The translations under genes and the position numbers were made by a program. A model generated the notes under the pieces. The model worked only from the letters and a program-made list of their open reading frames with translations, searched no databases and had not been told where the DNA came from. A stretch of DNA of 64,000 nt from the NCBI RefSeq assembly GCF_002263495.1, contig NZ_CP022753.1:620001-684000 (forward strand), in the 5' to 3' direction. Source of the stretch: Nocardiopsis gilva YIM 90087. Its GTDB lineage: Bacteria; Actinomycetota; Actinomycetes; Streptosporangiales; Streptosporangiaceae. Positions 6,699 through 20,206 of this stretch are shown in pieces; within the stretch, counting starts at the first letter, position 1; the number at the start of each line of letters is the position of its first letter.

Positions 6699-11715
<5,017 letters not shown>

Positions 11716-11885
11716 CCGCAGATGGCTGGGTGCTCGCGCACACTATTTCATCACTCTTGAAGGTAGGGGTGGTGGAGCGTGATGATCGCACACGAATCGT
11801 TTTTGTTCTTTTTCATATGGTTGCCGCTCGTTGCGGCCCTTGGTTTTCCCGACACGGATCGTGTGGTTCGTGGTTTGGGGTTAGG

Positions 11886-12003
11886 GTTGCGGTGGTTTTT
11901 GCGAGGGGGTCACACCCGGTCTCATTTCGAACCCGGTCGTTAAGTTCCTCAGCGCCGATGGTACTGCCTCCATGGTGGGGTGGGAGAGTAGGACGCCGCC
12001 GCG
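11886..12003 (+). rRNA. rrf: 5S ribosomal RNA (rrn operon copy)
   Basis: The sequence contains the 5S core CCGAT-GGTACTGC and GGGAGAGTAGGACGCCGCC. The 5' GCGGTGG strand pairs with the 3' CCGCCGC strand to close helix I. It lies about 170 bases after 23S and just before a strong terminator. Confidence 0.95.
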
Positions 12004-12014
12004 CATTCTTTGAG

Positions 12015-12051: not shown

Positions 12052-12087
12052 GTCGTGGTCTTTGTGATTTTGTGAAGAGAAACCGAG

Positions 12088-12258: not shown

Positions 12259-13479
12259 ATGTATGACCACCGCAAGCTCGGTCGCGAGCTGGAGCTGTTC
12301 GACACCAGCCCCCTGATCGGCTCTGGGCTGCCGTACTGGTTGCCTGACGGCGCGGCCGTGCGCCACGCCCTGGAGGAGTACATCCGCACTGTCGAGCAGC
12401 GGGCGGGCTATCGACACGTCTATTCGCCGGTGCTGGGGAAGCGGGAGCTGTACGAGATCTCCGGCCACTGGTCGCATTACAGCGACGACATGTTTCCCCC
12501 GATGGATGTGGGATCGGAACAGGTTGTCCTACGGCCGAGTCTGTGCCCACACCACGCAGTGATTTACCGTTCCCGTTCACACAGCTACCGCGAACTTCCC
12601 CTGCGCATGGCTGAGCTGGGCGGGATGTACCGGTCGGAGCTCTCCGGCGTGCTTGGAGGGCTGAGCCGGGTGCGGGCTATCCACCTTAATGACGCGCACA
12701 TCTTCTGCACCATCGACCAGGTCGCGGCGGAGGCGGGGGCGGCTCTGGAGATGATCCGGCGAGCCTATGAGGCTCTCGGTATTGCCGCGGCCCGTTTTCG
12801 GCTCTCACTCCCTGGTCCCGATGGAAAATATGTCGCCAGGCCCGAGATGTGGGAGAGGTCCACCGCGCTGCTGACCGATGTCCTCGATCGCTCCGGCCTT
12901 TCCTATGAGGCAGTCGAGGACGAGGCCGCCTTCTATGGTCCAAAGATCGACGTTCAGGTGGTCGACGACGCTGGCCGGGAGACCACTCTGTCCACTGTCC
13001 AGGTTGACTTCCACCAGCCCGAGCAATTCGACCTGCACTACATCGGTGCCGACGGTAGGAAACACCGACCGGTCATGGTGCACCGCAGCATCATCGGCAG
13101 TGTGGAACGGGCTGTCGCTCACCTCATTGAGCAGCATGGCGGGGCCTTCCCTCCGTGGCTTGCCCCTGTTCAGTTGGTGATCCTCCCGATCTCCGAAGCC
13201 GAGGTGCCTAACGCTGTCGGGATCGCCCGGCAATGCGTCGACCTCGGACTGCGCGCTGAGCTCGTCGGGCCCGAACAGGGAAGCCTCGGTTCCCGCATCC
13301 GCGAAGCACGGTTGGTGCCCTACCAGGCTGTCATCGGCCCCAAGGAAACCGCAGATGACCATGTCGCCCTGCGGCTGCGTGATGGACGACGAATCGATCC
13401 ACTACCCGCTGTCGAGGTCCTGAGGCACATAAGCGCACTCGTCGATGCCCACAGCAGCGATCTGTGGGATCTCTCCTGA
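12259..13479 (+). CDS. Short threonyl-tRNA synthetase lacking TGS and editing domains
   Basis: This 406-residue class II synthetase has only the catalytic core and anticodon-binding domain of ThrRS; full enzymes have about 640-680 residues with N-terminal TGS and editing domains. The start ATG has AGGAG (12248-12252) upstream. Predicted Zn ligands are Cys96 (S-L-C-P-H-H), His147 (N-D-A-H-I-F-C) and His275 (V-M-V-H-R-S). Motif 2 is M-A-E-L-G-G-M-Y-R-S-E-L-S-G and motif 3 is G-S-V-E-R. The usual T-Q-D-D-A-H reads H-L-N-D-A-H, losing the Gln. It should charge tRNA-Thr without proofreading serine. The attenuator upstream suggests induction when charged tRNA-Thr is scarce, so it is probably a second, conditional enzyme. 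Confidence 0.9.
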   Translation: MYDHRKLGRELELFDTSPLIGSGLPYWLPDGAAVRHALEEYIRTVEQRAGYRHVYSPVLGKRELYEISGHWSHYSDDMFPPMDVGSEQVVLRPSLCPHHAVIYRSRSHSYRELPLRMAELGGMYRSELSGVLGGLSRVRAIHLNDAHIFCTIDQVAAEAGAALEMIRRAYEALGIAAARFRLSLPGPDGKYVARPEMWERSTALLTDVLDRSGLSYEAVEDEAAFYGPKIDVQVVDDAGRETTLSTVQVDFHQPEQFDLHYIGADGRKHRPVMVHRSIIGSVERAVAHLIEQHGGAFPPWLAPVQLVILPISEAEVPNAVGIARQCVDLGLRAELVGPEQGSLGSRIREARLVPYQAVIGPKETADDHVALRLRDGRRIDPLPAVEVLRHISALVDAHSSDLWDLS

Positions 13480-17847: not shown

Positions 17848-18522
17848 TCAGTCGCGAGGCACGGTTCCGGAGAACGTCACCCCTTCCCGCTGGTTGTCGA
17901 GGAGAACGAAACTGAGCTCGACCTGGAGGTAATCCTCCTGCGGCGGCATGGCGCAGGCGTACGTGGCTCTCTCCGTGCTTCCCGGGGCCACGGTCGTCGC
18001 GAACTCGCCCTCGACACCCTCGTCGGGGAAAGGCATCGTGGGTCGATCCCCCGCATCCTCGCCGACCAGGCACTTCACCCGCAGGCCGGACATCGGCAGC
18101 GGATCGGAGCCCATCGCGTTCGCCACCTCGACGGTGAAGAGGGCCATGTGCTCACTCTTCAGCGTCGCTCGGCGTGACTCCTTCACTGAGACATACACAT
18201 AGTCGTCATAGGCGATCGAGCCGCCCAGCTTCTCCCAGGTGGTATTGGCCTGCACCGGCCCGCCAGGCTCCTCTTCGTATTCGGCGGGAACTGGCGGGGG
18301 TGCGTCGGGTGCGGGGGGTACGTCCGGCCCCGAGGTGACATCGGAGCCACCGCCGCCGTTTGCCAGCGCCGTGACCAGGGACGAGGAGAACTCGCCCATT
18401 GGGCCGGCCACAATCGATAGCGCGGCCAGCCCAATGATCCCGGCCAACGCCCACCGTTTGGTGACTTCCTTCTCGCTTGCGCGACGATCCGGATCGCGGC
18501 GTCCGTCGGAGGAATCAGACAT
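17848..18522 (-). CDS. Membrane-anchored extracytoplasmic hypothetical protein
   Basis: The protein has 224 residues: a basic cytoplasmic head of about 24 residues, one hydrophobic segment (A-L-A-G-I-I-G-L-A-A-L-S-I-V-A-G), a Pro/Glu-rich linker (roughly 60-90), then a beta-rich domain of about 130 residues with two cysteines (in V-K-C-L-V and Y-A-C-A-M) that could form a disulfide. The layout resembles actinobacterial DUF4352-type immunoglobulin-like exported proteins, but I cannot assign it firmly. It is followed convergently by nothing obvious and preceded divergently by the orphan 5S gene. Confidence 0.7.
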   Translation of the reverse strand: MSDSSDGRRDPDRRASEKEVTKRWALAGIIGLAALSIVAGPMGEFSSSLVTALANGGGGSDVTSGPDVPPAPDAPPPVPAEYEEEPGGPVQANTTWEKLGGSIAYDDYVYVSVKESRRATLKSEHMALFTVEVANAMGSDPLPMSGLRVKCLVGEDAGDRPTMPFPDEGVEGEFATTVAPGSTERATYACAMPPQEDYLQVELSFVLLDNQREGVTFSGTVPRD

Positions 18523-18702
18523 GTCCGGATCCTAGGCGCATGCGTGACGCGTCCTCGTCCCGGGGCGGGGCCATCGGGCCGTCAACCTTGTCGCCAATGT
18601 GGCCACAGCATGCACGCGGATGGTCTATACTCAGAACCGTTGTCGCACTCCGACGCGGCCCATAGGTTTCCACGCTCCCGGTATCCGGGAGTGATGGGCA
18701 AG

Positions 18703-18823
18703 GTGTGCGGCGGCTATAGCGAGAGGGAAACACCCGGTCTCATTCCGAACCCGGTCGTTAAGCCTCTCAGCGCCGATGGTACTGCCCCCATGGTGCGGGG
18801 TGGGAGAGTAGGTCGCCGCCGCA
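18703..18823 (+). rRNA. rrf: Orphan second 5S ribosomal RNA gene
   Basis: A second full-length 5S sequence lies about 6.7 kb downstream of the rrn operon with no 16S or 23S beside it. It shares the 5S core (AACCCGGTCGTTAAG, CAGCGCCGATGGTACTGC, GGGAGAGTAGG) with the operon copy but differs at many positions in helices I-III. Helix I pairs almost perfectly: GTGCGGCGG with CCGCCGCAT, including one G-U. A TATACT -10 hexamer lies at 18626-18631 without a clear -35, and a perfect terminator follows. Structure and terminator argue that it is expressed and functional. Confidence 0.9.
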
Positions 18824-18837
18824 TTTTTCTTGAGGAG

Positions 18838-18868
18838 GGGGTCCTTGACTTCGGTCAGGGGCCCCTTT
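18838..18868 (+). terminator. Terminator of the orphan 5S gene
   Basis: A 12-base-pair stem (18838-18849 with 18854-18865, two G-U pairs) is capped by a TTCG tetraloop and followed by TTT. Confidence 0.9.
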
Positions 18869-19089
18869 CGCGTTGCCGGGCATTGCCGATGACCTGGTCA
18901 GCGCAGCATGGTGACGACTTCGCCGGACTCTCGTAGCACCGTCGGCAGCGTCTCCGCCGCGGATGATGCGTTCTCCGTTGGAGTCCCTGGCTGAAGTCCC
19001 TCGGGGAGGTCGGCACGTCAGGGCGCCGACCGGCACCCCCGTCCCACCGGCCACCCGGGCAGGCCGGTCCGAACGCGCTCGCTCCGTTC

Positions 19090-20051
19090 TCAGCCGCCAA
19101 CGACCTTGGCGAATGACTCCAGTTCCCGCGGAACATCGGCCCCGGCCGGCTGATAGACGACCTCGGTCGCGCCGGCCGCTTCCAACTGAGCGAGCTCGTG
19201 CCGCCACCCGTCGGTGTCGAGGGCCAAGCCGAGATCGCTGAGCAGTTCTCCCGTGCTGAAGGGACGGTCCAGCTCGTTGAGCCCGCACATATGTCCCTCG
19301 TGCATGACGAGGTGACGCGTCTCCGCAGGGATCTCGGCCTAGGCGGACGCCCAGGGTTCGGCCGCGGGGATGAGTTCCAGCCGGTCGAACTCCACGGCGA
19401 AGTGCATGATCGCCGCTGCGGCGTGCCCGGCGGTGCCGCGTCCCCGCTCCGAGCCGGGGTCCTCGCCGTCACGGAGCACGGTGCCGAATGTCAGGGCGGC
19501 ACTCCAGTCGAACCCGGGTACCGGCGTCACGGCTCCGAAGACCCCATAACCCGATTCCCGCGCCACGGCTGCCCCTTTCGGGGCCTGGGCACCGACCAGG
19601 ACGGGAACGTCGATGGGACGGGGCGGAGCGAACCCCGGCCGGTGCAGCATCTCGATGACCGCGCCGTCCCAGTTCGCTCGCTCTCCCCGCAGCAGCGCCC
19701 GGAGCACCCCGATGTCGTCGGCGACGTCCGACCACGGGCTCGGTCGAGTCCCCAGGCTGACCCGACCGGTGAACCCGGACCCGATCCCGACCGCGACGCG
19801 CGTCTACCCAGCCAGCGCGACGAGGGTAGCGATGCCTGCGGCGTTGACCATCGGGTGGCGAAGGGCGGGGACCAGCACGCCCGGGCCGAGGCCGATACGC
19901 TCGGTCAGTTCCGCGGCTCGGCAGAGCTGCACCCACCCGTCGGGGGGTACACGGCCGGTGAGTCGTAGAACCAGGCGTGCCGATAGCCGAGCTGTTCCGC
20001 GATCCGCGCATGCTCGTGGCTTTCGAGGGATGTGCTGAACGAGCACGACAT
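19090..20051 (-). pseudogene. LLM-class (F420/flavin-dependent) oxidoreductase, broken by one frameshift and two amber codons
   Basis: Translation from the ATG at 20051 gives a bacterial-luciferase-like N-terminus with the signature A-W-F-Y-D-S-P-A-V-Y-P. It shifts frame in a run of six C residues near 19950. The second frame continues as D-G-W-V-Q-L-C-R-A-A-E-L-T-E-R-I, meets TAG at 19804-19806 just before R-V-A-V-G-I-G-S-G-F-T-G-R, continues through V-L-V-G-A-Q-A-P-K-G, meets a second TAG at 19339-19341, and then resumes as H-E-G-H-M-C-G-L-N-E to a TGA at 19090. The pieces together cover an LLM enzyme of about 320 residues. Three independent lesions make a functional product very unlikely. 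The rest of the frame is well preserved, so the decay is recent. Confidence 0.85.
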
Positions 20052-20206
20052 CTTGAGTGCCAATCGGGCCTCCGCGAGTCACTCGCTGCTGGGGGAAAGG
20101 GCCATCCGGTCTTCCCGCAGCGTTACAGCGAAACGTATGAGGGCCCGGACATGGGGTCTTTCGCGAACACGCAGGGAAGTTGCCTCTCCCCGCAGAACTG
20201 CTTCGG

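Follow-up and report, generated by a model that had tools for sequence, protein, structure and literature searches.

A stand-alone 5S rRNA gene conserved in two genera of one family, with a probable origin from an extra rrn copy

The rRNA copies of one genome normally stay alike. Here we report on a 5S rRNA gene of Nocardiopsis gilva YIM 90087 that lies apart from the rrn operons and differs in sequence from the 5S genes inside them, which raises the question of whether it is a working gene and how it came to stand alone. The gene is located in a stretch of 64,000 nucleotides (the window), which comprises positions 620001-684000 of the single 6.14-Mb contig of this genome (G000). In our reading, which we consider likely, it is a stand-alone working 5S gene that most probably goes back to an internally deleted extra rrn copy in the common ancestor of two genera.

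A 5S gene outside the rrn operon

The relevant features of the window are given below; G001 is the second genome of the window's genus.

6699-12004, + strand: ordinary rrn operon upstream of the solo gene (16S 6699-8232, 23S 8630-11717, 5S 11888-12004; Rfam matches)
18626-18631, + strand: -10-like hexamer TATACT, with GGTCTATACTCA..ACCGTTGTCGC common to G001 (read in the sequence; conserved between G000 and G001)
18670-18697, + strand: leader hairpin directly before the 5S gene, resembling the end of a 23S-5S spacer (consensus fold, BLAST and model matches)
18706-18824, + strand: solo 5S rRNA gene, 119 nt (Rfam RF00001, 96.8 bits, full length; 34 of 34 helix pairs standard)
18834-18869, + strand: UUCG-capped terminator-like hairpin with a short U tract (-30 kcal/mol, a stability not reached in any of 200 shuffles)

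Rfam detects a single 16S gene, a single 23S gene and two 5S genes in the window; of the latter, the operonic one scores 78.7 bits and the solo one 96.8 bits. The sequence at 18706-18824 is a real 5S gene: its covariance match to RF00001 covers model positions 1-120, exceeds the gathering score of 38 bits and has an E-value of 8.3e-20 in the window search, which excludes a chance match. The segments AUGGUA and AGAGUA, which we take to be the loop E strands of bacterial 5S rRNA, are present, and the corresponding columns (71-76 and 100-105) are invariant across the eight solo genes described below. The gene is situated 6.7 kb past the operonic 5S at 11888-12004, and no 23S other than the operon's own was found by Rfam in the window; likewise, none of the eight solo genes has a 23S within 1.5 kb upstream.

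The original prediction, made from the letters of the window, had described a complete 5S gene 6.7 kb from the rrn operon without 16S or 23S of its own, and had proposed a covariance-model scan and a count of the rrn operons. The full-length match and the single 16S and 23S genes of the window bear out the description, and genome-wide there are seven 5S genes and six 16S genes in G000, the solo copy therefore being extra. The six operonic 5S genes score 70.7-78.7 bits, all below the solo copy, and each of them starts 172-177 nt past a 23S end.

Upstream of the solo gene, on the opposite strand, are an ORF starting at 18522 (without a Pfam family) and a gene for a DUF418 protein. Relatives of the latter were found at six loci in the genome contigs (29-33% identity), and the 5S scan lists no 5S gene in these loci; a DNA pattern search of the genome contigs returned no matches. 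On the minus strand at 19804-20082, a single ORF of 92 amino acids matches luciferase-like monooxygenase (PF00296) over profile positions 52-95 of 314. The two adjoining ORFs, when tested, matched no family; disruption of this luciferase-like gene or errors in its sequencing may be the explanation.

Several further observations concern the rrn operons themselves. Among the six operonic 5S genes of G000, the lengths of two G runs are the only differences, and 13 of the 17 variant indel columns among its six 16S copies are located in runs of four or more, compared with 6 substitution columns; all six 16S genes of G001 have equal scores. The six G000 operons (that at 6699-12004 and five others) show numerous single-base indels within runs of G or C, and these run-length differences probably stem from errors in the assembly. 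Substitutions are present at 111 columns of the 23S copies as well, and these have the appearance of true heterogeneity. An element of 15 nt, TTGTGAANNNGTGAA, lies about 60 nt past the operonic 5S, just beyond the terminator; the window operon carries the variant TTGTGATTTTGTGAA at this site (12062-12076). The matches to TTGTGAANNNGTGAA are all at rrn ends in G000 (5/5 genome-wide) and G124 (5/5) and near contig edges in G096 (4/4). The exact element was found neither in G001 nor in G023, and once in G150, elsewhere than at an rrn end. A looser form occurs 3' of the G001 operons and after none of the eight solo genes. Just past the window operon, 12259-13479 encodes a class II aminoacyl-tRNA synthetase-like protein of 406 amino acids (PF00587, PF03129), presumably a short extra threonyl-tRNA synthetase.

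Counterparts and distribution in the family

A comparison of the neighbourhood with related genomes, another suggestion of the original prediction, located an equivalent solo 5S gene in all eight genomes examined of two genera, namely the window's genus g1 (G000 and G001; 2/2) and genus g9 (G124, G165, G009, G181, G096 and G146; 6/6). In each case, the gene is on the same strand as an rrn operon and downstream of it, a placement read directly in three genomes (G000, G001, G124) and deduced from the contig starts in five drafts. G001 has six identical operonic 5S genes (90.4 bits) and one solo 5S gene of 119 nt (96.5 bits), which lies 2.8 kb past an rrn operon and shares 94% identity with that of G000. 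G124 has five 16S and six 5S genes, with operonic copies at 75.7 bits and a solo copy at 98.7 bits, 1.27 kb past one rrn operon. G000, G001 and G124 have an ORF upstream of the rrn operon in common, and G001 and G124 also share one downstream of the solo gene, which indicates the same rrn neighbourhood. In the five draft genomes of g9, the contig begins 1.6-3.5 kb before the solo gene; the start is inside an operonic-type 5S in G009, G181 and G096, whereas the contig of G165 opens with sequence that in G181 follows an rrn terminator, and that of G146, as judged by eye, with sequence of the same kind.

The distribution was investigated with a model (R1) of the leader hairpin and the first 30 nt of the 5S, which was built from the eight solo units and run on 341 genomes of the family with a cut-off of E <= 1e-5. 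Matches were obtained in 25 genomes. The top eight (76.1-94.0 bits) are the same eight units from which the model was built, so that a diverged solo gene could be missed, and the next match (54.7 bits) is the end of an operonic spacer in G008. The weaker matches include three operons of G001, which supports the identity of the solo leader with a spacer tail. When 14 complete or nearly complete genomes were searched again, a solo gene was found in G124 only. The 5S genes of G108 form two score classes, and three of its four copies examined are operonic; an odd-scoring 5S gene of G120 also proved operonic. A 5S survey of 201 genomes covered the best ~150 matches, and no count was drawn from it.

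Two other ways of finding solo genes were discarded. Counts of 5S versus 16S genes were unsuitable because a 16S search under stricter filters gave no 16S gene in 2 of 41 genomes and fewer 16S than 5S genes in several; since 16S genes were lost in this way, score classes, the distance to a 23S and the leader model were used instead. An earlier promoter pattern detected only G000 and G001 among 297 genomes of the family and missed genus g9 because the g9 promoter differs. In another family of the class, the genome G042 has a 5S gene (L053:15178-15292) that lies 10.3 kb past the end of a 23S and has no 23S in the 1.5 kb before it, perhaps an independent solo 5S; the other two 5S matches of this genome contain runs of N.

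Signals, pairing and divergence

The unit had originally been taken to begin at 18626, which is exactly the start of the TATACT hexamer. No TTG-type -35 box was found at the usual distance from TATACT in the window, and a consensus scan of the window unit gave no sigma-70-type promoter. The solo units of g9 all have a promoter-like TTGGNN-17/18-TANNNT (6/6), and the same pattern is present 300-321 nt before the 16S in 12 of the 13 rrn operons examined (six of G000, five of six of G001, one of G124). The solo promoter of G124 resembles the P2 promoter of its own rrn operon (score 51, reached by 0 of 1000 shuffles) and is the best non-self site in 18 kb; that of G165 matches the same P2 better than all 1000 shuffles. 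The resemblance is marginal for G096 and G181 (28 of 1000 shuffles each), and no resemblance to the G124 P2 was found for G000, G001, G009 and G146 (4/8, including both genomes of the window's genus). Judged by anatomy, the predicted transcription from a promoter of its own is well supported in the six g9 genomes and more weakly in the window's genus, where only the -10 box is recognisable.

The leader hairpin has a consensus of nine pairs in the eight solo units, two of which are changed on both sides yet kept, the structure having been predicted from the same alignment that gave these compensated pairs. BLAST matches the G000 solo unit to an operonic spacer end plus 5S of G001, and the hairpin is probably a processing signal. 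At the other end of the gene, the original prediction had seen a perfect TTCG-capped terminator. The strong UUCG-capped hairpin stands up to analysis; the perfect terminator does not, as the hairpin is followed by only UUU and a scan for hairpins with a T-rich tail gave 0 sites at the solo unit. Stable hairpins are located 3' of all eight solo genes, their stability being equalled in no more than 2 of 200 shuffles.

All 272 helix cells of the eight solo genes, in five helices, are standard pairs. Three pairs show compensated changes, with eight cells altered on both sides; pair 17-62, for example, is G-C in six of the genes but A-U in those of G000 and G146. The solo genes' percentage of paired cells, count of doubly changed cells and covariation score were each reached by none of 500 shuffles, and two of the five pairing measures were within the range of the shuffles (doubly changed pairs, 109/500; further pair types, 262/500). 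As had been predicted, the window gene differs from the operonic copies at many sites and has kept its pairing: the solo and operonic 5S genes of G000 share 84-86% identity, an alignment with one operonic copy shows differences in 16 of 119 columns, and each of the 34 helix pairs tested is a standard pair. Within genomes, solo and operonic copies differ in 10-23 columns and also in the length of helix IV.

Between genomes, the solo copies differ less than the operonic copies. In the comparison of G000 with G001, 6 of 119 columns differ in the solo and 20 in the operonic 5S (Fisher p = 0.006, ignoring gene conversion), and the solo difference is the smaller one in 9 of 10 genome pairs, which are not independent (sums of 92 vs 169 columns; sole exception G181-G096, where the operonic copy of G096 is at a contig edge and called operonic by sequence). 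The solo gene of G096 shares GTCACACC with this operonic copy, perhaps as a result of gene conversion. In four of five genomes, the solo 5S has a more stable canonical fold than the operonic 5S (G000: -48.0 vs -35.1 kcal/mol), the opposite being true of G181; the canonical pairs are likewise more probable in the solo 5S in four of five, here with the order reversed in G096. The idea that the operonic copies are broken was rejected: at 73 columns with almost no variation among 24 reference 5S sequences, solo copies have 0-2 and operonic copies 1-2 deviations, which does not mark the latter as defective.

Origin, alternatives and known systems

According to the origin that we favour, the common ancestor of both genera would have had an additional rrn copy next to an existing operon, and this copy would have lost its 16S and 23S genes. 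What remained would be a promoter, the terminal ~45 nt of the 23S-5S spacer including its hairpin, the 5S gene and a terminator hairpin; the order of these events is our reconstruction. A P2-like promoter together with a spacer-like leader points to such an internally deleted copy, and in the window's genus the leader alone speaks for it. Transcription of the solo gene would yield a short RNA; this would be trimmed in the manner of operonic 5S, aided by the retained spacer hairpin, and would enter 50S subunits as a second 5S type. Because it is separate, it would have escaped most of the gene conversion that homogenises the operonic copies. The original prediction had also considered that the gene might be what remains of a second rrn operon, an idea that fits the origin (a leader like the tail of a 23S-5S spacer; P2-like promoters in G124 and G165, though not in the window's genus) and fails with respect to decay, the gene being conserved and its changes compensated. 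A relic of a deleted operon without present function would account for the rrn-like leader and, in g9, the rrn-like promoter, and is nevertheless very improbable in view of eight genes without a broken pair, the compensated changes and a divergence below that of the operonic copies. Nor were convincing 23S fragments found in the flanks, which had been named as possible evidence of a recent deletion: a search of 27.7 kb for rRNA fragments turned up no more than four matches, all of them short (20-44 bases) and weak (best E 0.011), and none is a convincing 16S or 23S fragment.

A history in which the two genera gained the solo gene separately, or one of them by transfer, appears quite improbable. 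The 5S and 23S trees are weak, the promoters of g1 and g9 look unlike, and genera lacking the solo gene are close by: one of them, g30, stands near g9 on the weak 23S tree, which requires loss or another history, and support in the 5S tree is too poor to date the duplication. Separate gain is opposed by the flanking ORFs shared among G000, G001 and G124, and between G001 and G124, in the same rrn neighbourhood, and by the leader and 5S, which align in all eight units. It is also rather improbable that the gene is a specialised 5S used under particular conditions (e.g. sporulation, starvation or stress) to give a functionally different ribosome population. The separate promoter region, the conserved difference of 10-23 columns and of helix IV length, and the slower change of the solo copies between genomes would suit a specialised role. 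Ribosomal protein L25, the one partner protein examined, binds the helix IV region of 5S rRNA, and its being a single gene in all eight genomes argues against such a role, as do the near-invariant family bases, which are kept about equally well in both types. A wider version, in which a dedicated solo 5S escaped concerted evolution, changing slowly while the operonic 5S genes drift, and in certain conditions provides a distinct class of ribosomes or even the larger part of the working 5S, is unlikely.

If the solo gene is a working descendant of an extra rrn copy, as we prefer to think, a single cell might contain two sorts of ribosome that differ in their 5S RNA, which would be the ribosome heterogeneity suggested in the original prediction. 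The solo copy seems to have remained separate from a time before the two genera split, and it is still intact. Such a system is important because it makes the question of whether bacteria use different 5S types directly testable: the 10-23 differing columns allow sequencing reads to distinguish both types, and the genera of the family without a solo gene can serve as controls.

Divergent 5S copies within prokaryotic genomes, some of them tied to partial or split operons and with conserved secondary structure, were reportedly described by Pei et al. (2012, FEMS Microbiol Lett). A literature search yielded no publication on the solo 5S of this clade, which does not by itself show that none is in print. 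For Francisella, an unlinked 119-bp 5S gene outside the rrn operons (3+1) is reported genus-wide, and is called an orphan fragment in a table note of the same source (PMC3479022). An extra 5S outside the rrn operons in other members of a genus is likewise found here (2/2 and 6/6 genomes); in contrast to the Francisella gene, which that account describes as unlinked, the solo gene is downstream of an rrn operon, divergent from the operonic copies and equipped with rrn-like signals. The stand-alone 5S of Desulfallas gibsoniae also kept the region that normally precedes a 5S gene, and is presented as an oversized, displaced piece with a large insertion and accidental control elements, perhaps from another species (PMC7812874), whereas the solo unit is, by comparison with that description, normal-sized and conserved in eight genomes. 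Escherichia coli rrnD is cited as having a 5S gene beyond the usual one per operon, the second copy being within the operon (PMC11883441); the solo gene forms a unit of its own, kilobases from the operon. Additional or unlinked 5S genes are already known, and the present case contributes a conserved, divergent and separately placed 5S unit with rrn-like signals in two genera.
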